Assembly (NCBI GenBank): GCA_030427525.1
Contig: JAUIBD010000004.1
Span: 1 to 54,466, forward strand
Direction of reading: 5' to 3'
Length of the DNA: 54,466 bases
DNA from: a bacterium
GTDB lineage: Bacteria; Patescibacteriota; Saccharimonadia; Saccharimonadales; Saccharimonadaceae
Shown: one piece after another, positions 4,398-47,180 of the stretch
How positions within the stretch are numbered: position 1 is the stretch's first letter
Layout: each line of letters starts with the position of its first letter
The notes under the pieces: model-generated
What the model saw: only the letters and a program-made list of their open reading frames with translations
Told to the model about the DNA's origin: nothing
Database searches by the model: none
Position numbers and translations under genes: made by a program

Positions 4398-4426
4398 TTG
4401 AAAGACTCCATCAATTCTGTTAAAAT
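4398..4426 (+). promoter_or_regulatory. Promoter of the rplJ-rplL operon
   Basis: TTGAAA (4398-4403), a 17-bp spacer and TAAAAT (4421-4426) form a near-consensus sigma-70-type promoter ahead of the L10 leader. Confidence 0.75.
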
Positions 4427-4429
4427 GTT

Positions 4430-4595
4430 TCTAGACATTACCAAAGACAGTAGCCGCGAAGGGAGACCAACGCTTAATCCGCTACCGAGGTGAATACCAT
4501 CTATTCCCCAACGTAAGGTCTTGTCTAGTGCAGGAACTTTTTAATTTCCAGCCCTAGCGCTCGTTAACAATGTGGTCAAACAAACTAAAGTAAGG
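4430..4595 (+). promoter_or_regulatory. Ribosomal protein L10 leader
   Basis: The long leader before rplJ contains the features of the L10 leader family: a GACAGTAGC arm (4446-4454) pairing through GTAGC with GCTAC at 4481-4485, followed by CGAGGTGAA. In other bacteria the L10 or L10-L12 complex binds this leader and represses its own operon; that role is inferred here from resemblance and position. Confidence 0.75.
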
Positions 4596-7284: not shown

Positions 7285-7313
7285 TTGACTTTTCTTATGT
7301 TATTTGGTATAAT
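7285..7313 (+). promoter_or_regulatory. Consensus promoter of GC-rich islet A
   Basis: TTGACT (7285-7290), a 17-bp spacer and a perfect TATAAT (7308-7313). It is one of the strongest promoters in the window, yet it serves a very small GC-rich gene. Confidence 0.85.
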
Positions 7314-7349
7314 TAGTACCAAAGCCAGCCCAGCCAGGAAGGTGATCAT

Positions 7350-7565
7350 ATGAACCAGGATGGCGCCATACTCGGCGCACTCATCGGTATCGGGGTCGGT
7401 GCCCTCATCTCTGCTTTTGTCCTCTTCGCGTGGACGAGGCAGTCAGGTAGCACCCCGCCGTCCGGAGGTCCAATCAACGGCGGGAACGCAATAGCCTTCG
7501 GACTAGCGATGGTCATCGGGATCTGCATGACCATCGGTATTGCGATCGGAGCAAGCATTGGCTGA
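7350..7565 (+). CDS. Small glycine-rich two-helix membrane protein
   Basis: A 71-residue protein with two hydrophobic segments (residues about 7-27 and 49-70), both rich in glycine and alanine with GxxxG-like spacing (GALIGIGVGALI and MVIGICMTIGIAIGASIG), and a short Ser/Pro/Gly loop between. I do not recognise it. GxxxG-rich hairpins occur in self-associating membrane peptides and in some bacteriocins, so oligomerisation is possible (inference). It has a consensus promoter, an excellent ribosome binding site (AGGAAGGTGA, 7336-7345) and its own terminator. Codon use is clearly more GC-rich than in the neighbouring genes. Confidence 0.7.
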   Translation: MNQDGAILGALIGIGVGALISAFVLFAWTRQSGSTPPSGGPINGGNAIAFGLAMVIGICMTIGIAIGASIG

Positions 7566-7568
7566 TTA

Positions 7569-7642
7569 AGCCACCGCGCGCTCGCCGCGCTAGCTATCAA
7601 GGAAAGCTAGCCGGCTGGAGCCACGCGGTGGCTCTTTTTATT
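7569..7642 (+). terminator. Intrinsic terminator of islet A
   Basis: AGCCACCGCG (7569-7578) pairs with CGCGGTGGCT (7624-7633), followed by CTTTTTATTT. A second hairpin, GCTAGCT/AGCTAGC (7589-7595 and 7605-7611), is nested in the loop. Confidence 0.85.
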
Positions 7643-7889
7643 TGTAACGTAATTTCAAGTAAAATACTGCCAATGCCATAGCTAGGGTGATAGAGCTCAT
7701 GACAATCAGTGAGATACTACTAATCAGTAAACCATACACCACCCACAGCACTTGGCCAGTAATACTTATCAGCATCCAGCCCCACGAAAGGTCGCTGGTA
7801 GATTTTGTTTTGAGTGATTTTATAAACTGTGGCAACAGCGCCAATGCAACCATAGAACCTGCCATAAAACCAACAATTTCAGCATTCAT
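7638..7889 (-). CDS. SemiSWEET / PQ-loop transporter
   Basis: An 83-residue protein with three transmembrane helices and the PQ-loop motif ALLPQFIKSLKTKSTSDLSWGW, the hallmark of bacterial SemiSWEETs, which dimerise to move sugars. Length and layout match the family. A TATGAT box (complement of 7896-7901) ends 6 nt before the ATG, so the mRNA is probably leaderless. It is divergent from tdk, and its stop lies within the terminator of the facing islet A. Confidence 0.85.
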   Translation of the reverse strand: MNAEIVGFMAGSMVALALLPQFIKSLKTKSTSDLSWGWMLISITGQVLWVVYGLLISSISLIVMSSITLAMALAVFYLKLRYK

Positions 7890-14477: not shown

Positions 14478-14530
14478 AGTGCTATACTTGTAGCAATCGT
14501 GCTGTCGATCATAGAAAGGGTGTGAGCGCG

Positions 14531-14740
14531 ATGCCAGTGATGTGCCCAACCTGCGGGAACGAGATGAAGTCCGTGGGAGTGACCATGGTCTGCCAAGTCT
14601 GCGGCGGTGTAAGCGGCGCTGTCGTCCAGCAGACGAAGCTGTGCGGAGCCTGCGGATCAGGCAAGATCCAGGCTCACGACGGCAAGTGTTCCAGCTGCGG
14701 CTGGAGTGACGACCAACAGTCGAACGATGGGAGTTCCTGA
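14531..14740 (+). CDS. Small double zinc-ribbon protein
   Basis: A 69-residue protein with four CxxC knuckles: CPTCG and CQVCG in the first half, CGACG and CSSCG in the second, so two zinc ribbons. The family is not identified; such ribbons mediate protein or nucleic-acid contacts. The ATG at 14531 is preferred over the GTG at 14522 because the AAAGGG site (14514-14520) has workable spacing only to 14531. A TATACT box is at 14483-14488. Codons are strongly GC-biased compared with recR and pyrC on either side. Its stop overlaps the next small ORF by one base. Confidence 0.7.
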   Translation: MPVMCPTCGNEMKSVGVTMVCQVCGGVSGAVVQQTKLCGACGSGKIQAHDGKCSSCGWSDDQQSNDGSS

Positions 14741-14856
14741 TGTCCTGCGTCGCGGCTGGAGTCGTGATCTTCTATCTGTACTTCCGCATCATGCGATGGT
14801 GGCTGGGGATCACTCCTCACGCCGCTGGAACCGAAGACGAAGGTGATGGCCTGTGA
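14740..14856 (+). CDS. 38-residue single-helix membrane peptide
   Basis: A short ORF starting inside the TGATG overlap with the zinc-ribbon gene. It encodes a hydrophobic segment (AAGVVIFYLYFRIMRWWLG) and a polar acidic tail (TEDEGDGL). It is likely a single-pass membrane peptide, translationally coupled to the zinc-ribbon protein. It is GC-rich like its partner. No homology is recognised, and at this length the call rests on the coupling and the terminator right after it. Confidence 0.5.
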   Translation: MSCVAAGVVIFYLYFRIMRWWLGITPHAAGTEDEGDGL

Positions 14857-14875
14857 GCCCGCACCGGAAGTCGAG

Positions 14876-14917
14876 CACAACGACTGCTCCTTCCGGGGCG
14901 GGCGTTGTGTTTTTTTG
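14876..14917 (+). terminator. Intrinsic terminator of islet B
   Basis: CACAACG (14876-14882) pairs with CGTTGTG (14903-14909), followed by seven T. CCGGAAG (14864-14870) can alternatively pair with CTTCCGG (14890-14896). Confidence 0.8.
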
Positions 14918-18399: not shown

Positions 18400-19282
18400 G
18401 CACATCCTCAGCATCGACCAATTCACTCGAAAAGATATAGAGAAACTCTTCAAACGCGCTGAACACTTTAAAGCAATCGTCGAGAAAGACGGTGGCACCG
18501 ATCTGCTAAAAGGCCACGTGAGCGCAAATCTGTTCTACGAACCATCGACTCGTACGTCTAGCTCCTTCGCCGCGGCAATGTACCGACTCGGTGGCAATGT
18601 TATTCCCATCAACGATGTGCAGTATTCATCTGTTTCAAAAGGCGAAACGCTTGAGGACACAGTACGAACGCTAGAGCAATACGCCGATGTAATCGTGCTA
18701 CGCCACCCGGATGTGGGCGCGGCCAAGCGCGCGGCAGGCGTAGCTAGTGTGCCTATTATTAACGCGGGCGACGGTGTAGGCGAGCACCCAACCCAAGCTT
18801 TGTTAGATCTCTTTACTATTTTCGAAGAACAGGGCAGGGTAGACGGACTAAGTGTTGCGATGCTTGGTGATCTCAAAAACGGTCGTACAGTGCACTCTCT
18901 CGCAAAATTGCTCGCCCTATATGATGTCGAGCTCCTGGCTGTTGCACCGAATGAACTGGCCTTTCCACCAGAATATGGCAAGGTGAAAACCTACGAATCG
19001 CTGGATAAAGTAATCGATAAAGCTGACGTGCTATATGTAACCCGCGTACAAAAAGAGCGTTTTGCCAGCCTGGAGGAATACGAAAAGGTACAAGGCAGCT
19101 ACATTATTGATGGAGATGTCGCCAATAAAATGAAAAAATCTGCGTCTATCATGCACCCGCTGCCACGCGTTGGTGAAATTCATTTCGATGTCGACGCCAA
19201 CCCACGCGCAGCGTATTTTCGCCAGATGCGAAATGGTCTGTACGTGCGCATGGCACTCCTAGAACAAGTACAAGCTAACTAA
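18392..19282 (+). CDS. pyrB: Aspartate carbamoyltransferase catalytic chain PyrB
   Basis: Makes carbamoyl-aspartate, the first committed step. The 296-residue protein has the carbamoyl-phosphate loop [12 protein letters not shown] (residues about 46-57), [10 protein letters not shown] and the HPLPRVGEI segment. No regulatory chain gene (pyrI) is adjacent. The ATG at 18392 overlaps pyrE; a TTG 9 bp upstream adds nothing conserved. Together with pyrC, D, F and E it covers carbamoyl phosphate to UMP; the synthetase genes carAB are not in the window. Confidence 0.95.
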
Positions 19283-29566: not shown

Positions 29567-29680
29567 CCGTTTTCGCTCTTGCTTTTTCCTGTCCAGCATT
29601 TCTGGTTTAATTAGAAGTATCCTAGTAACACGCCCCTCGGTGCCGTGCGAACGGTGTACCGAACGACCCTGGAGGAATGC

Positions 29681-30217
29681 ATGCCCCAGCTCACCGAATC
29701 ACCCGTTCACGCCAACACGGCCAACGGCGCCATCTTCTTGTACCTGCATCCCTTCAAGCAAGGGGTGCGCGTCAGTCGGGCCAAGAACAGCCATCTGAAC
29801 AACTTCTGGCCATTCTGGCTGCGCCAGCTGATCCTGGAGAACACCGACCCGGCCGACCAGTTCGCCGTCGAGGTCGCCGGCACCTCGGTGCTGGTGCGGT
29901 CCTCGCTGTCGTCAGCAGGAACCGTCGAGACGGTGCGTCACTTCGCACAGCAGATCGTCCCGCTGCCGCTCCCGCCACTCAGGTGGAGGCGGCGGATCGG
30001 GACGTCGATGTCGTGCCACTGGGACTGCTTGGATGGCTTCGACTCAACCTGGCTGCAGACGCTGACGCTGCCCGACGGCGCACGCGTGCTGCACAGTGGG
30101 GACGTCGTCGAGGGCAGTCTGACACTCCGACGCAACCAGCGCAACCCCTTCAAGATCGGGGAGCTGCGTCGGATGGTGGAGATGCACGTGGCACTCCACG
30201 CCAGCGGTCGTTCCTGA
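29681..30217 (+). CDS. GC-rich orphan protein of islet C
   Basis: A 178-residue protein that I do not recognise. It is rich in Arg, Trp, Pro and His, with codons of actinobacterial style (CTG, GCC, CGG), unlike either neighbour. Features are NNFWPFWLRQLIL near residue 48, an Arg-rich stretch PLPLPPLRWRRRIGTS (about 96-112) and a C-terminal LRRNQRNPFKIGELRRMVEMHVALHASGR helix. The ATG at 29681 has GGAGG 5 nt upstream; an upstream ATG-like start at 29645 has none. No soluble family or catalytic motif is evident. It ends in a very strong terminator. Confidence 0.6.
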   Translation: MPQLTESPVHANTANGAIFLYLHPFKQGVRVSRAKNSHLNNFWPFWLRQLILENTDPADQFAVEVAGTSVLVRSSLSSAGTVETVRHFAQQIVPLPLPPLRWRRRIGTSMSCHWDCLDGFDSTWLQTLTLPDGARVLHSGDVVEGSLTLRRNQRNPFKIGELRRMVEMHVALHASGRS

Positions 30218-30218
30218 T

Positions 30219-30273
30219 GCCAGGGCCGCTCGTACACGACTGTACGGGCGGCCCTGGCGGGAACACTTTTTTT
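30219..30273 (+). terminator. Very long terminator hairpin of islet C
   Basis: GCCAGGGCCGCTCGTACA (30219-30236) pairs over 18 bp, with one G-U, with 30241-30258 around a CGAC loop. Seven T follow 8 nt later. Confidence 0.8.
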
Positions 30274-30277
30274 GTAA

Positions 30278-30766
30278 TTATCGTTTAAACGTCTTTTTCT
30301 CAGTAATTACCATGTCCATTGCAACGTCTACAGGACTAATCGGTACTTGGGCTACTTTTTGCAGTGAAAAAGCGATGCCCACCTTCAAGGCGCCAGGTTG
30401 AGACGCCAAGTACTCGTCGTACCAGCCGCCACCCATTCCGATTCGATTGCAGCTGCCATCAAAGGCGACAAGGGGAACTAAAATAATGTCGAATTCGCCA
30501 TCTGGCTGTGCGGCGTCAATTTTGAATTTTGAAACAACAATATCTATATCGGGATGCTCAAGCCCGATACGCACCAGTAGTGACGAAGGGTCAACTTCGT
30601 GCAAACTTTTCAGTGCCTTATACGCATTGAGCCGTTTTACCGACGACCAGTCGATTTCATCGTAAACTCGCTGGCATATTTTCAGCGATGCCAACGTCTG
30701 TTCGCCAGGAGAAAGCGCAGTTCTACGCTTCATGCTGGCGATGCGAAGCGCTTCTTTGCTAACCAT
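30278..30766 (-). CDS. 5-formyltetrahydrofolate cyclo-ligase
   Basis: ATP-dependent enzyme (MTHFS) that converts 5-formyl- to methenyl-tetrahydrofolate, keeping the folate pool that ThyA and FolA use. The 162-residue protein has the N-terminal KEALRIASMKRRTALS helix with the ATP-contacting basic residues and the signature DIILVPLVAFDGSCNRIGMGGGWYDEYL. The start at 30766 is chosen because a TATACT box (complement of 30773-30778) ends 6 nt before it; an ATG 24 bp upstream would lie in the promoter. Confidence 0.92.
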   Translation of the reverse strand: MVSKEALRIASMKRRTALSPGEQTLASLKICQRVYDEIDWSSVKRLNAYKALKSLHEVDPSSLLVRIGLEHPDIDIVVSKFKIDAAQPDGEFDIILVPLVAFDGSCNRIGMGGGWYDEYLASQPGALKVGIAFSLQKVAQVPISPVDVAMDMVITEKKTFKR

Positions 30767-41297: not shown

Positions 41298-41870
41298 ATG
41301 AAACAACGTGGCTTTACGCTTGTCGAATTACTCGTGGTAGCTATTATTATTGCGATCATTGCCGGCGTGTCTGCTGTTGGCTACATTCAGTACCAAAATA
41401 AATCCAGCGACTCCCAGGCATCAACACTCAGCAGGGTTATCGCGAATGCTGCCGACCATTATTACAATCAAAACCTCGAGTACCCAACCGCAACGCAGCT
41501 ACTTGGAGCCTCGCCAAGCAACAACGCACCAACCAGCGGCCAGTACGCCAACATTGCATCATTTTTGAATATTCCACAAGATTCAATCAAAAATGGTAAG
41601 TTCAGTATCTTCCCGTGCTCTGGCACATGCACACTTTCGAACACAAATGGCGACTACGTATTTTATATAACAAAAGGTACTGCGGCCGGCTCTGCCAAAA
41701 CGTATCCAATTAGCGACAATGGTTGTGTATTCACTTTCCCAAGCAACGAAAATGATGGCGTGTCCTACTTCATAGCATACAAACCAAAAGAAACTGGCAA
41801 CTGGGTATACATTCGTAGCTCGAACGGTGATGTGGCTACAAGCGATAGTTTCTGGTGTCCGTTTAAATAG
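41298..41870 (+). CDS. Type IV prepilin-like protein
   Basis: A 190-residue protein with the prepilin cleavage and methylation motif: a short basic leader MKQRG, then FTLVELLVVAIIIAIIAG with Glu at +5, a hydrophobic helix and a soluble head. The head has CSGTC, then a CVFTF and a final WCPF cysteine, probably two disulfides. It would be a pilin or pseudopilin for adhesion or DNA uptake; type IV pili are known in CPR. No assembly genes are in the window. It ends with an 8-bp overlap with the convergent gene. Confidence 0.9.
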   Translation: MKQRGFTLVELLVVAIIIAIIAGVSAVGYIQYQNKSSDSQASTLSRVIANAADHYYNQNLEYPTATQLLGASPSNNAPTSGQYANIASFLNIPQDSIKNGKFSIFPCSGTCTLSNTNGDYVFYITKGTAAGSAKTYPISDNGCVFTFPSNENDGVSYFIAYKPKETGNWVYIRSSNGDVATSDSFWCPFK

Positions 41871-42351
41871 CTTTTATACGACGGTACGTAAACTTTGCCC
41901 CAACACGCCAACCTCCACTTGCGTCAGGGTCAAATTGTTTTATTTCGCCATGTTTTATTTCACGAATTTGCACCAAGGCAGGGTTGTACGGCGCGAGCGT
42001 ACGATAGTACTGCAGGTCCTCTGGCAATGGGTTATGCCTGCCAGGAAATACCGTCTTGAATTTCTCGCTGCCGATGTCATCAAAATAGGCAGGTCGGCCT
42101 TTTGGCGGAATATATGTTTCAGCGGTCAGATCCATTCGCGATACAATTGTTTTAATATCTTTTAGCAGCAAGCGTGATGTACCTGAGATATACACATATA
42201 GCTGTTTGCTTTTGGTTAAAAACACCGTCGCGTATGCCACGCGGCTCACTGGTACATGCCGCACTATCACATGCTCAATTTCTAATGGAATACCAAATTT
42301 GTCTTTGGCAATCTGCTCCAAGGCAATATCATCATAGATTTCACTGTCCAT
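41863..42351 (-). CDS. Uncharacterised conserved-looking protein
   Basis: A 162-residue soluble protein with no recognised family. The start at 42351 (MDSEIYDDIALEQ) is chosen because a TAAAAT box lies 8 nt upstream on that strand and the longer open frame runs into the GC-rich RNA locus. Residues about 20-80 look like an alternating alpha/beta fold (IEHVIVRHVPVSRVAYATVFLTKSKQLYVYISG), followed by PPKGRPAYFDDI and a C-terminal WRVGAKFTYRRIKAI. It is divergent from the structured RNA at 42423. Confidence 0.6.
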   Translation of the reverse strand: MDSEIYDDIALEQIAKDKFGIPLEIEHVIVRHVPVSRVAYATVFLTKSKQLYVYISGTSRLLLKDIKTIVSRMDLTAETYIPPKGRPAYFDDIGSEKFKTVFPGRHNPLPEDLQYYRTLAPYNPALVQIREIKHGEIKQFDPDASGGWRVGAKFTYRRIKAI

Positions 42352-42387
42352 TACCTCATATTTTAGCACATTATTTATAAAAAAGTA

Positions 42388-42416
42388 TTGACATTTTAGC
42401 ATATTTGGTGTATAAT
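42388..42416 (+). promoter_or_regulatory. Perfect consensus promoter of the islet D RNA
   Basis: TTGACA (42388-42393), a 17-bp spacer and TATAAT (42411-42416) match the sigma-70 consensus exactly. It points into the GC-rich folded region and is the best promoter in the window. Confidence 0.92.
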
Positions 42417-42422
42417 GATATG

Positions 42423-42895
42423 ACCATCGATTAGACGCACACGTCTGCTGCGTCGGCGAGCCCGGTTCGGGAATCGGTGGCTGCAAGATAGGTGGGTCCG
42501 CGCTCGTCGCGCGGCTCTTGTGCCAGGTCAGGCACCCACCTCGGTACGGCGACCCCTCGTGGTTGGTGGTCGCCCTGGATGCCCCCTCGAGGGGCAAGCC
42601 GGACGCGGGACCCGAGATCCCCGTCCGCCGAAAAGCTCCAGCCCTTGACTGGGCAAGTCGCGGGCGACGCCGCATGCTAGACTGGAGCTACCGCCACGGA
42701 GGTCGTCGATCACCTCCATGCTCCCACCGTGGATTGCGTGTCCCCGTGCACGTACGATCGGTGGAGCAGGGGCGAGAATGGCCGCAAGGCCTATGCCCCC
42801 GTCAAGGCCCCCTGGGCCCGGAGCCACCCGCAAGGGTCGGCACCGGGTCCAGGGCGGTCTAAATCACTCGAACCACCATCTGGTGGTCTTTTTTA
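42423..42895 (+). ncRNA. Structured GC-rich RNA of unknown class (islet D)
   Basis: The predicted transcript is about 470 nt. Helices seen: AGGTGGGT (42490-42497) with 42534-42541, enclosing CCGCGC/GCGCGG and TGCC/GGCA (a three-way junction); GGCGACC (42548-42554) with 42568-42574; GCCCC/GGGGC (42581-42595); CGGACG/CGTCCG (42600-42627); AGCTCCAG (42634-42641) with 42682-42689, enclosing two hairpins; GGAGGT/ACCTCC (42698-42717); GGGGC/GCCCC around GGCC-GCAA-GGCC (42780-42791); and a 12-bp helix 42810-42821 with 42843-42854, capped by ACCC-GCAA-GGGT. I cannot match it to RNase P RNA, tmRNA, SRP, 6S or group I/II introns. Open frames across it look random. Confidence 0.8.
42872..42894 (+). terminator. 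Intrinsic terminator of the islet D RNA
   Basis: ACCACC (42872-42877) pairs with GGTGGT (42882-42887), followed by CTTTTTT. Confidence 0.92.
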
Positions 42896-42917
42896 TTTCC
42901 CGTATACTAGATAGAGA

Positions 42918-45900
42918 ATGGATTTTGATAGCAGGTACAAAAAGCTCAACGCCAAGCAAAAGGAAGCAGTAGACCACATTGATGGTCCGCTCATGGTAAT
43001 AGCAGGGCCTGGCACGGGTAAAACAGAGCTACTTAGTATGCGCGCGGCAAACATTTTGCGCCGTACCGACACGGCTGCACAAAACGTGTTGTGTTTAACA
43101 TTTACCGAGGCTGGGCAAACCGCCATGCGAAAGCGCTTGGTAGAGATCATGGGCCAAAGTGGCTATCAAGTGGCCGTTCACACCTTCCACGGCTTTGCTG
43201 GTGATGTTATGGCCCAGTATCGCTACCATTTCTTTGGTGGTGCATCGTTTCGTATCGCTGATGATTTAGTAAAATATCGCGTTATTAGTAGTATTCTAGA
43301 TAGTTTGCGCTACGACAACCCCCTAAAAGTCAGCATGAATGGTGAATATACTGGCATAAAAGATATCCTACAAGCGATTTCAGAAATTAAGCGTAGCGGC
43401 TTGGTGCTCGAAGAGCTTCGAGGCGTGCTCGACGCCAATGACATTGCTATTGGCGCAGCCGAACGCGAACTCGCCCCAGTGTTCGAACCGCGTATTTCGG
43501 CCAAAACTATCCCAGACCTAGAAGGTGTAATACCAAAAATAGAGGCGATCGACGAACCAAAGCCGCTAGAACTTATTCCTCGTTTGTCCGACACAATCAT
43601 CGCCAGCCTAGAGCAAGCACTGGCTGAATGCGACGTACTAGGGGGCAAAACTCCTCCTATTACCGCGTGGAAAAAGTCATGGCTTACGAAAGACAGCAGC
43701 GGTAAAACTATACTGAAATCACACGCCCAGCAGGCAAAGCTACGCGAGCTATTGCCAGTCTATCAACAATACTGCGAAATCCTGGAAAAAGCTCAGCTGT
43801 ACGACTACGACGACATGATCGTGCAGCTGATTCACGTACTTGAAACTCAAGATGATGTGCGATTCGACCTGCAGGAACGCTACCAGTACATAATGGTCGA
43901 TGAATTTCAGGACACCAACCTCGCTCAAGCTCGCATACTACGCAACCTCACAAACAACCCCATAGTCGAAGACCAACCAAACATTATGGTCGTGGGCGAT
44001 GACGATCAAGCTATTTATGGCTTCCAGGGTGCGGAAGTAGGCAATATCATCAATTTCGACCATTTATATCCACGCCGTGAGCTTCTTACACTTACCGATA
44101 ACTACCGTTCAACCGAACCGATACTCAGTGCCGCCAGAGAAGTCATCTCGCAAGGGAGTGAGCGCCTGGAAGCACGTATTACCGAACTTGATAAAACACT
44201 GCAAGCCCACGCTACACATACCCCTTTGATGCCGAAGTTAGTAGAGCTGCCAACTACAGCAGGTGAGCGTAGGTGGGTAACGCAGCAGGTCGCAGCTGCA
44301 CTAAAAGCTGGCACCGCACCAAACCAGATTGCAATTATTGCCCGTAAGCACGCCGACCTAGAAGCTATGGTGCCGTACCTCAGCGAGCACGACATAGCCG
44401 TAAGCTATGAGCACCAAGACAACGTGCTCGATATCGAAGTCGTACGCATAGTATTGCTGCTTGCCAAGACTATTCATGCAATCCACGACCAGCGCCATCA
44501 CGACGCGCAGGCATTGCTACCCGAACTACTAAGCCACCCGGCCTGGGATATCAATGCAAAAACGCTATGGGATATAAGCCTCAGCGCCTACAAAGAACGC
44601 ACAAATTGGATAGAGACTATCCTTGAGAACGCGGAAACTAGCCAGCTAGGCGAATGGCTGCTTTCCGCAGCGAAAGCGTCGGCCCATACACCCCTCGAGA
44701 CAATGCTCGACGTGCTTTTGGGCCAAAGTACACTCGAAGAATCTGAGTATACTTCGCCATTGAAATCATATTTCTTTTCAGACACCAAGCGCGAGCAAGA
44801 AATCCTAACGTATACTCGGTACCTAGAAGCGCTACGAACTATTCGCACCAAACTCCGTGAACACAACCCCGAACAAACCACGTTACTGCTGCCAGCCCTT
44901 GTCGAATTTGTGAGTTTGCATGCAGCTACCAACACATCAATTACATCTATTTCGCATATTGGTGATGCATCTACGTCTGTTCAGCTGTTGTCAGCTCATG
45001 GTGCAAAGGGACTTGAGTTTGAATCAGTGTTCATACTCAATGCGGTCGATAGTGTGTGGGGTGAATCGGTGCGTTCGCCATCTTCGCTCATTTCTTACCC
45101 TGAAAACTTACGACTTCGCCAACACAGCGGCAGTGTAGAAGAGCGCCTTCGGCTCTTTTTCGTCGCAATGACTAGGGCAAAACAATCATTAGTCATAAGC
45201 TACAGCACGCTTTCCGATACCGCCAAAGAACAGCTTCGCCCTAGTTTTTTGGCTGACCAAACTACGCTTGATGTTGAAATACCTAGCATCGACACCAGTG
45301 CCGCAGCCACACTCGAGAGCGCGCAACATATGTGGTATGACCCTGTTGCGAGCTTGCCACCAGGCGACATGAAACGTGCACTAGCAGCAAACTTGGAGAA
45401 GTTCCAGCTTACCGCAACCAGCCTTGGCGCATTTTTAGATGTTACGAAAGGTGGGCCAAAGGCGTTCCTTACCGAACAGCTGCTTCATTTCCCAAGCGCT
45501 AAATCTCGGCATGCCAGCTTTGGCTCGGCCATTCACGCCACCTTGCAGTACATGCACACCTTTGTTGTTCAAAACGGTCATCTTCCGCCCGATGAAGACA
45601 TTTTGCAACATTTTCAGCACACGCTTGATGAACAACAACTCTCGAAAACAGATCACGACCATTTCCTTCATAAAGGCTTTGACGCTCTGAATGCATTTGT
45701 AAAAGCAAAGGGTGGCGATTTTAACGCCAACCAGCTGGCTGAATTCGACTTTTCGCACCAGGGTGCTCAACTAGGTCAGGCTCGCTTAAAGGGTAATTTA
45801 GATGTTGTAGAGCTCGATAAAACAGCCAAAACCGCGCAGATTATAGACTATAAAACAGGCTCAAGTCTCAGCGGATGGGGTCGTGGTAGTGTATACGACA

Positions 45901-46199
45901 AAATTAAATCCCACCACTACCGACAACAGCTGTTGTTTTACCACATTCTCATGAACCGTAGCCGCGACTATGCTAACTACCAGGTGTCGAATCTAATGGT
46001 ACAATTTGTCGAGCCAAACAAAGCAGGCGAGATAATAGACCTTGGTTTAGAAGTCGATAATGAGGAACTAGCCCGTCTCGAACAGCTAGTACAGGTCGTA
46101 TGGCGGCATATCATGGCACTAGATTTTCCTGACACATCGCAGTATGAACAATCTGTCGAAGGCATCAAGGCCTTTGAAGAAGATTTGTTGACAGAATAG
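42918..46199 (+). CDS. UvrD/Rep-type helicase fused to a PD-(D/E)XK nuclease
   Basis: A 1093-residue repair helicase-nuclease, of the AddA/AdnB kind. Helicase motifs in order: Walker A AGPGTGKT (29-36), LTFTEAGQTAMRKR, YDYDDMI, MVDEFQDTN, VVGDDDQAIYGFQGA, LTDNYRST, LLSAHGAKGLEF and VAMTRAK. The C-terminal part (about 830-1093) has FGSAIHATLQY, LKGNLDVVELDK and IIDYKTGS, a RecB-like nuclease core. Cysteines for the Fe-S staple of AddB/AdnB are not seen. No second subunit is adjacent, so it may work alone. TATACT (42903-42908) is 9 nt before the ATG. Confidence 0.92.
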   Translation: MDFDSRYKKLNAKQKEAVDHIDGPLMVIAGPGTGKTELLSMRAANILRRTDTAAQNVLCLTFTEAGQTAMRKRLVEIMGQSGYQVAVHTFHGFAGDVMAQYRYHFFGGASFRIADDLVKYRVISSILDSLRYDNPLKVSMNGEYTGIKDILQAISEIKRSGLVLEELRGVLDANDIAIGAAERELAPVFEPRISAKTIPDLEGVIPKIEAIDEPKPLELIPRLSDTIIASLEQALAECDVLGGKTPPITAWKKSWLTKDSSGKTILKSHAQQAKLRELLPVYQQYCEILEKAQLYDYDDMIVQLIHVLETQDDVRFDLQERYQYIMVDEFQDTNLAQARILRNLTNNPIVEDQPNIMVVGDDDQAIYGFQGAEVGNIINFDHLYPRRELLTLTDNYRSTEPILSAAREVISQGSERLEARITELDKTLQAHATHTPLMPKLVELPTTAGERRWVTQQVAAALKAGTAPNQIAIIARKHADLEAMVPYLSEHDIAVSYEHQDNVLDIEVVRIVLLLAKTIHAIHDQRHHDAQALLPELLSHPAWDINAKTLWDISLSAYKERTNWIETILENAETSQLGEWLLSAAKASAHTPLETMLDVLLGQSTLEESEYTSPLKSYFFSDTKREQEILTYTRYLEALRTIRTKLREHNPEQTTLLLPALVEFVSLHAATNTSITSISHIGDASTSVQLLSAHGAKGLEFESVFILNAVDSVWGESVRSPSSLISYPENLRLRQHSGSVEERLRLFFVAMTRAKQSLVISYSTLSDTAKEQLRPSFLADQTTLDVEIPSIDTSAAATLESAQHMWYDPVASLPPGDMKRALAANLEKFQLTATSLGAFLDVTKGGPKAFLTEQLLHFPSAKSRHASFGSAIHATLQYMHTFVVQNGHLPPDEDILQHFQHTLDEQQLSKTDHDHFLHKGFDALNAFVKAKGGDFNANQLAEFDFSHQGAQLGQARLKGNLDVVELDKTAKTAQIIDYKTGSSLSGWGRGSVYDKIKSHHYRQQLLFYHILMNRSRDYANYQVSNLMVQFVEPNKAGEIIDLGLEVDNEELARLEQLVQVVWRHIMALDFPDTSQYEQSVEGIKAFEEDLLTE

Positions 46200-46217
46200 T
46201 ACATAAAGTGTTACAAT
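46188..46217 (+). promoter_or_regulatory. Promoter of the islet E RNA
   Basis: TTGACA (46188-46193), an 18-bp spacer and TACAAT (46212-46217). The -35 box overlaps the last codons of the helicase gene. Confidence 0.85.
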
Positions 46218-46223
46218 AGTAGT

Positions 46224-46830
46224 AGCTTTAGGTGGTAGAGATGAGTAGATAGTGCTGTAGGAACCACCGTTTCATACACAACTATCTGCTCATTTCCTGT
46301 CTAAACGCACATTAAGAGACAGGAATGATGCTAATAAAGGTAGCGAGGCGTTGAGTCCGCCATCTGGCACGGGTCGGGCCGTAGGCTGGAGCCGCCGTCG
46401 CACCCTCCGAGTGTGGCAGCATTTCGGAGAGTGCGGACACGAGGGTGGTCACCTCAGCCAGGTGCCTCGCACTCGTGTCCGCACAAGCTTTGGTGCATTT
46501 TCGCACCGACAAACCTCGGCGCGTTTCGGCGCTGTGGTACTCGCACTCACGCACCTCCTTCCGCCCATCGCAACGTGGATGGTAGCGAAAATGCGAGCAG
46601 ACCAGGCGGCGCGGCGTGTGAACAGCACTCGCGCCGTCTGGTCCAGACTTGCCGAATTTTAATTCGGTACAGACTCGGTGTTCGGGGTTCCACCGAGCAT
46701 CGGCGAGCCGGCCCCCATGACGGCAGCCGATGGGCAGGGCACGGGGTGAAAACCCGTGCCCTGCCACCCCAAAGCTTGAATGCACCACCCTCATGCGGAC
46801 CGTCCGCGTGAGTTTTCGACACCTCGAAAG
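46224..46830 (+). ncRNA. Large structured RNA with pseudoknot and hairpin array (islet E)
   Basis: The predicted 5' end begins with an H-type pseudoknot: GGTGGT (46231-46236) pairs with ACCACC (46263-46268), and ATGAGTAGATAGT (46241-46253) with 46281-46293. Then follow CCTGTCT/AGACAGG (46296-46323), CTCCGA/TCGGAG (46405-46429), a 13-bp stem 46431-46443 with 46472-46484, GGTGC/GCACC (46492-46507), 46601-46613 with 46630-46642, CCGAATT/AATTCGG (46652-46667), CTCGGTG/CACCGAG (46674-46697), CATCGGC/GCCGATG (46698-46732), a 13-bp stem 46733-46745 with 46753-46765, and two short hairpins just before the ribosome binding site at 46830. The class is unknown; it may be a separate RNA or a long leader of the ORF at 46844. 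Confidence 0.78.
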
Positions 46831-46843
46831 GGGGTGGATTGCT

Positions 46844-47008
46844 ATGTGCAAGCCTGGCTGCAAGTCGGCCTACGGCAAGGCCTTCGAGGTGTTGTCTGCG
46901 AAGACCGACATCTCGACCAGTGACAGCTACTACAAGTTCCTCCAGACCAAGACCAACATGGCCTGTGTGCGCGCCTTCCTGGCGAGTATCGCCAGCAAGG
47001 TCAAGTGA
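46844..47008 (+). CDS. 54-residue basic protein behind the islet E RNA
   Basis: A small Lys-rich protein (MCKPGCKSAYGKAF at the start, then helical KFLQTKTNMACVRAFLASIASKVK). Three cysteines are present, two as CKPGC. No family is recognised. AAAGGGGGTG just before the ATG is a strong ribosome binding site, and codons are GC-rich (AAG, GCC, ACC), unlike the helicase gene before it. It has no other promoter than the one at 46188, so it is likely translated from the structured transcript. Confidence 0.6.
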   Translation: MCKPGCKSAYGKAFEVLSAKTDISTSDSYYKFLQTKTNMACVRAFLASIASKVK

Positions 47009-47084
47009 GTAGCTGTTCGTGACGGACGCTACGGCGTAAAATCAGGTCTCTGTAGCACACCAGCTGCAACGCATCATTCCTGTC

Positions 47085-47127
47085 CGTCTCACACTTTACA
47101 GAACTAGCTTGTGTACAGTGTGAGACG
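47085..47127 (+). other. Strong hairpin, possible 3' end of the islet E transcript
   Basis: CGTCTCACACT (47085-47095) pairs perfectly over 11 bp with AGTGTGAGACG (47117-47127). No T-run follows, so it is not a standard terminator. GACGGAC at about 47023 could alternatively pair with GTCCGTC at 47082. Confidence 0.6.
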
Positions 47128-47180
47128 ATATATCATGCGTGATATAATTGTACAGATTCAAACCTAAATGGAGACTACTT

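Follow-up and report, generated by a model that had tools for sequence, protein, structure and literature searches.

A probable accessory RNA gene with a kept fold upstream of uvrD in a Saccharibacteria genome

Introduction

What is encoded by the G+C-rich stretch that stands directly upstream of uvrD in a Saccharibacteria genome? The stretch lies at 42423-42895 of the window, by which we mean the whole 54,466-nt piece of DNA that was analysed (contig JAUIBD010000004.1 of assembly GCA_030427525.1), and the source genome of the window (G000) has 996,100 bases in 29 contigs. An initial annotation, made from the sequence, had read this stretch as a discrete folded transcript and had raised the possibility of a new class of non-coding RNA. 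Literature searches found no study devoted to genes for non-coding RNA in Saccharibacteria. We examined the transcription signals, relationship to known RNA families, coding capacity, fold, homologues and genomic site of this element, whose features are listed in Table 1.

Table 1. Features of the candidate RNA gene and its neighbours, in window positions
Feature	Position	Strand	Basis or remark
Conserved hypothetical protein, divergent neighbour	41863-42351	-	tblastn
Sigma-70-type promoter TTGACA-17-TATAAT	42388-42416	+	12/12 match; TTGACA 42388-42393, 17-nt spacer, TATAAT 42411-42416
Candidate structured non-coding RNA gene	42423-42895	+	fold z -5.6; no Rfam match; pairing kept; no kept ORF; start approximate, 7 nt past the -10 box
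Long-range helix CGGTGGCTGC/GGAGCTACCG, closing a multi-way junction	42475-42484 with 42684-42693	+	RNAalifold consensus
Three-way junction, closing helix AGGTGGGT/ACCCACCT	42490-42541	+	consensus fold; hairpins 42498-42514 and 42522-42533
Variable arm of three hairpins (42548-42574, 42580-42596, 42600-42627)	42548-42627	+
Hairpin 42698-42717 and two-part hairpin 42720-42767	42698-42767	+
Hairpin GGGGC...GCCCC, inner GGCC-GCAA-GGCC (first GCAA tetraloop)	42769-42799	+	compensatory pair 42782-42789
24-pair 3' hairpin, cap ACCC-GCAA-GGGT (second GCAA tetraloop)	42805-42860	+	identical in G002
Intrinsic terminator	42872-42895	+	hairpin 42872-42887, then T-run
uvrD -10 box TATACT	42903-42908	+	downstream of the RNA terminator
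UvrD-type helicase with PD-(D/E)XK nuclease domain	42918-46199	+	Pfam

Results

Transcription signals and base composition

Both the perfect promoter and the intrinsic terminator claimed by the initial annotation were found at the element, which is present as a single copy in G000. Only eight sites in this 996-kb genome match the promoter consensus at 12/12 positions with a spacer of 16 to 18 nt. In G002, a genome of another species of the same genus, both hexamers were identical to those of the window and the spacer alone differed; the terminator was also present. Counterparts in two further genomes, G011 and G001, were preceded by TTGACA-17-CATAAT and ended in a terminator whose hairpin differed from that of the window and was followed by a T-run. 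Having its own promoter and terminator, both kept in homologues, the element presents what would be expected of an independent non-coding RNA gene. A recount of positions 42481 to 42540 gave the same 41 G or C among 60 bases as reported previously, and the local G+C content was 63 to 71%, compared to a genome mean of 46.8%.

Taken alone, high G+C content next to a consensus promoter does not stand out in G000, because many small protein-coding cassettes share these properties. Of the 61 sites that matched the promoter consensus at 11 or more of 12 positions, 14 preceded 250-nt stretches of at least 58% G+C, compared to 2.5% of the genome. Most of the G+C-rich promoter islands were protein coding, and 42423-42895 was among the few without an ORF. 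The RNA gene has in common with the cassettes its promoter type, a G+C content of about 60 to 69%, strong terminal hairpins and an accessory distribution, but the cassettes carry an ORF with about 80 to 97% G+C at third positions whereas 42423-42895 keeps none.

Dozens of such single-gene cassettes (60 to 69% G+C) with TTGAC(A/T)-N17-TATAAT promoters were seen in G000 (e.g., C1:32889-34944, C25:48546-49610, C18:3458-4050, C19:17607-18580, C4:2814-3330 and C4:24950-26000). They contain small ORFs, with the third-position bias given above, and repeated 5' and 3' hairpins, and were possibly acquired from high-G+C hosts. Islands of this type in the window were 7285-7650 (ORF 7350-7565, 71 aa), 14501-14910 (ORF 14531-14740, 69 aa) and 29621-30280 (ORF 29681-30217, 178 aa). 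Pfam searches with ten cassette and neighbour proteins detected no informative family. On C6 there are ORFs that we take to be surface-protein-like and sortase-like, the latter having no Pfam match. Just past a cassette on C19, at about 18590-18640 (L087), lies CTGATGAGTCCAAAAGGACGAAAAC, presumably a hammerhead-like core; an Rfam search of this region at gathering cut-offs gave no match.

Comparison with known RNA families

A search of Rfam with Infernal, proposed as a check in the initial annotation, returned no family at or near threshold. Analysis of the whole window with cmscan at gathering cut-offs gave no match at 42423-42895 (an L10 leader was found by the Rfam search at 4423-4552), and a search of 42380-42920 with lax filters gave a best score of 15.7 bits, where the family's cut-off is 36.2. 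The initial annotation had seen no conserved motifs of RNase P RNA, tmRNA, signal recognition particle (SRP) RNA or 6S RNA, and no such model matched the locus. RNase P RNA (RF00010; C28:16052-16392, 261.6 bits) and tmRNA (RF00023; C28:12847-13233, 86.3 bits) were located on another contig of G000, and these identities were rejected. An SRP RNA (RF00169) or 6S RNA (RF00013) identity was likewise rejected, with no match at the locus and none elsewhere in G000, whose completeness is estimated at 93%, using the small bacterial SRP RNA and 6S models; among 14 control genomes, 13 had a match for SRP RNA and 6 for 6S RNA. The element does contain CCAGGTCAGG, presumably a decamer of bacterial SRP RNA. 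Models of OLE, ROOL and GOLLD gave no match at any threshold used.

These results indicated that the RNA is new, being absent from every curated family, while its kind, the lineage-specific structured bacterial RNA gene, is known. Like such genes, it has a promoter, a terminator and a multistem fold with compensatory changes, and has neither an ORF nor an Rfam family; it differs from them in having been found so far only in some species of a single Saccharibacteria genus. The suggestion of a possible new class is supported by the Rfam and ORF tests, within that taxonomic range. OLE, ROOL and GOLLD are large ornate bacterial RNAs with homo-oligomer contacts (PMC12286853). The RNA at 42423-42895 is similarly long and many-stemmed, with multiple junctions and hairpin arms of variable length; it matches no Rfam model, and the resemblance is one of style only.

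Coding capacity

Translation of all frames revealed none that the window shares with G002, or that either of them shares with G011/G001; frames between homologues were broken and interrupted by stops. No ORF with a Shine-Dalgarno sequence and G+C-rich third positions was listed in 42421-42895. The lowest p value in 18 tests for synonymous excess was 0.024, for a frame within the first 120 nt in which 6 of 9 changed codons were synonymous. This frame has no start codon, is immediately preceded by TGA and breaks up further along, and hence 42423-42895 was considered to be non-coding. Coding capacity was rejected for both strands. Homologues that keep an ORF rather than the pairing had been named as evidence against a structured RNA; G002 keeps the pairing and no ORF.

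Predicted fold

The predicted folding energy of 42423-42895 was -247 kcal/mol, compared to -210.8 ± 6.5 for 100 dinucleotide shuffles, none of which folded as well (z = -5.6). Similar z values were obtained for the G002 homologue (-6.6) and the diverged G011 counterpart (-5.2). The consensus structure for the window and G002 contained 22 helices, more than the "at least ten" counted initially. The long-range helix was identical in the two sequences and would close a multi-way junction at 42475-42693, whose geometry is a prediction of the model. Comparison of the three-way junction with G002 detected one one-sided change and zero breaks. The variable arm differed in length and sequence between species and retained its pairing, with compensatory pairs at 42600-42627, 42603-42624 and 42609-42619. 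In the inner stem at 42735-42754 there were three compensatory changes, and the same three appeared in a structure-blind MAFFT alignment.

Two GCAA tetraloops had been described, and the window has both of them. G002 shares the second alone (42830-42833), and has a 5-nt GCTGA loop where the first would be. The helix beneath the second tetraloop had been given as 12 bp and in fact comprises 24 pairs (42805-42829 with 42834-42860). G011 and G001 have a hairpin of comparable size in the corresponding place.

Homologues and conservation of pairing

A BLAST search of 151 genomes detected one clear homologue, that of G002, with 81% identity and the same place, promoter and terminator as the window element. 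The strongly diverged counterparts of G011 and G001, which are 95% identical to each other, were found at the same site via uvrD. Local alignment of the window with these counterparts scored 339, compared to a maximum of 314 in 300 shuffles, and the score for G002 against them was reached by 2 of 300 shuffles. With similarity this weak and just above that of shuffles, homology of the G011/G001 element to the window RNA would be argued chiefly from its position and layout. When 295 genomes of the family were searched with a covariance model built from the 3' part (R1), matches were obtained in G000 and G002 only; it missed G011 and G001, and the R1 search therefore underestimates distant relatives. 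The phage search gave only chance stretches of 26 to 27 nt, the plasmid search gave no homologue, and exact 17-mer matches to the RNA in viral contigs did not extend past 24 nt.

The window and G002 were aligned by hand with regard to structure, towards which the middle part of the alignment leans; the 141 consensus pairs comprised 125 unchanged, 8 one-sided, 8 compensatory and 0 broken pairs. Besides those of the variable arm and 42782-42789, the compensatory pairs were 42640-42650 and the three of the inner stem (42738-42751, 42739-42750 and 42740-42749). The comparison covers two close sequences, for which formal covariation statistics are weak, supplemented by the diverged pair G011 and G001. 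When the two sequences were folded separately, each formed 157 pairs, with 99 in common. Substitutions avoided stems, affecting 24 of 282 paired sites compared to 51 of 174 unpaired ones (Fisher p = 1e-8). In the 3' 200 columns of the structure-blind MAFFT alignment, there were 3 compensatory pairs and 100% of cells were paired, compared to 36 to 49% when the partners were slid by 1 to 3 columns. In a letter-shuffle control, itself weak with two sequences, 79 of 500 shuffles reached 3 compensatory pairs. Between G011 and G001, 22 of 27 differing sites were unpaired and none of 121 pairs was broken.

Genomic site and distribution

A uvrD match was obtained in 149 of the 151 genomes, and the uvrD search of genome contigs returned three named Candidatus Saccharibacteria relatives. 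The site of insertion is marked by uvrD and the divergent hypothetical gene, which was detected by tblastn in 22 of 30 loci and in 5 further genomes of the genus. The RNA is absent from eight or more other species of the genus, in which the site is only a short gap, with about 50 to 130 bp between the two genes in RNA-less members. In other genera, different genes occupy the gap, with L050 having a G+C-rich cassette with short ORFs. All four carriers (G000, G002, G011 and G001) have the RNA directly upstream of uvrD and in the same orientation. Of 30 loci, 29 had a TANNNT motif 10 to 22 nt ahead of the uvrD start, irrespective of whether the RNA was present.

In a phylogeny of UvrD, the remaining members of the genus formed a clade that included G011 and G001 and excluded G000 and G002. 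As the uvrD genes of the four carriers thus fall into more than one clade, exchange at the locus is suggested. UvrD of G000 and G002 was observed to group with other genera, and the 41863-42351 gene was closest to homologues within the genus; recombination at the uvrD locus is likely, to judge from these sequence relationships.

Discussion

The element at 42423-42895 is best explained as an accessory structured non-coding RNA gene of about 470 nt, giving a separate terminated transcript that most likely acts in trans, a reading that we hold with reasonable, though not high, confidence. Transcription is here inferred solely from the kept promoter and terminator, and action in trans is likewise inferred. 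The gene would sit at an insertion-prone site between the conserved hypothetical gene and uvrD, and its sigma-70 promoter and terminator would delimit a separate transcript. This transcript would fold as several domains, with a 5' domain shut by the long-range helix, then the variable arm of hairpins and, at the 3' side, a domain that ends with the long hairpin. No stretch similar or complementary to the RNA was found elsewhere in G000 at E ≤ 1; long antisense pairing within this genome is therefore unlikely, although pairing through short seeds is conceivable. The combination of a terminated element with a kept fold, the lack of long antisense matches and the patchy presence favoured a trans-acting folded RNA, and the molecule would most likely work in this way rather than as an mRNA or an antisense RNA. 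A role as a protein-binding or decoy RNA is conceivable, and we offer it tentatively.

Of the other explanations, a 5' leader of uvrD, riboswitch-like or an attenuator in which the terminator at 42872 governs read-through into the helicase gene, has the most to recommend it and is nevertheless unlikely. Like riboswitches and ribosomal-protein leaders, the RNA is structured, precedes a gene of the same orientation and ends in a terminator hairpin, here about 25 nt before the uvrD start, and it occupies this position in 4/4 carrier genomes. Unlike in such leaders, uvrD has a -10 box of its own past the RNA terminator, and a box is found at this place in nearly all loci whether or not the RNA is present, so the RNA is probably not a leader of uvrD. 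In most relatives, among them eight or more members of the genus, uvrD is present and the element is not, and the RNA occurs with uvrD genes of different clades in G000/G002 and G011/G001. Somewhat less probable is a decayed or unrecognised G+C-rich small-protein cassette, of which the element would be the mRNA or its remains. The strong promoter, G+C-rich body and strong 3' hairpins are shared with the cassettes, and the frame with p = 0.024, the lowest of 18, fits this idea, but the missing start codon and later breaks of that frame do not; stems rather than frames have been kept, and decay would not be expected to leave long near-identical stretches and compensatory changes.

Two further explanations appeared very improbable, to about the same degree. 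A highly diverged housekeeping RNA, SRP or 6S, missed by Rfam would account for the lack of RF00169 and RF00013 matches in G000 and for the presumed SRP decamer, but even the lax-filter search gave no match, and RNase P RNA and tmRNA lie elsewhere in the genome. Moreover, patchy presence argues against a housekeeping role: most species of the genus lack the element at this site, and it was not found elsewhere in them, unlike an essential RNA. Alternatively, the stems could act in DNA, as a recombination or replication site or the end of a mobile element, with transcription being incidental. Patchy presence at an insertion-prone site is consistent with this, but the element is a single copy in G000, the promoter and terminator have the same orientation in all carriers, and one-sided changes to G-U pairs are tolerated, as in RNA.

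A discrete accessory RNA, folded and fast changing and located beside a recombination-type helicase, would offer a concrete target for RNA-seq and pull-down experiments. It also directs attention to a larger group of accessory units, G+C-rich and promoter-driven, in the tiny genomes of Saccharibacteria. That this RNA founds a new structured RNA family, carried by Saccharibacteria as exchangeable accessory cassettes as the RNA-only counterpart of the small-gene cassettes and acting in host-cell contact or defence, is a speculation that we regard as doubtful.

A second folded RNA downstream of uvrD

A larger folded RNA was observed directly downstream of uvrD at 46218-47135, with a fold z of -14.0 over 862 nt, a TTGACA-18-TACAAT promoter at 46188-46217 and no match in an Rfam search. 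Its ends recur in relatives, with apparently strong covariation. The 5' hairpin is GATGAGTAGATAG/CTATCTGCTCAT in the window, GAGCATGGATATG/CATATCCATGCTC in L053 and GAGCAGTGGACA/TGTCCGCTGCTC in L060; the closing helix is GACAGGAATGATGC/GCATCATTCCTGTC and the 3' hairpin is GTCTCACA/TGTGAGAC. The 3' motif TTCCYGTCCGTCTCNCA was present in 13 of 151 genomes from 7 genera, compared to 0 for the reversed control. On these sequence comparisons, this RNA is more widely conserved than that at 42423-42895, and we judge it the worthier of separate study. Within it lies a small ORF (46844-47008; MCKPGCKSAYGKAFEVLSAKTDISTSDSYYKFLQTKTNMACVRAFLASIASKVK) with a strong Shine-Dalgarno sequence, for which a Pfam search gave no match; the ORF is nearly identical in G002, and G011 has a different short ORF there. 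In the uvrD-dus gap of relatives, there were matches resembling tRNAs that carried inserts or had unusual anticodons (Asp atc, Phe aaa, Pro agg or undetermined), at L033 4961-5243, L035 963-1346, L037 747-904, L044 1235-1309 and L057 1276-1353, and these may be tRNA-like portions of large RNAs in that gap.
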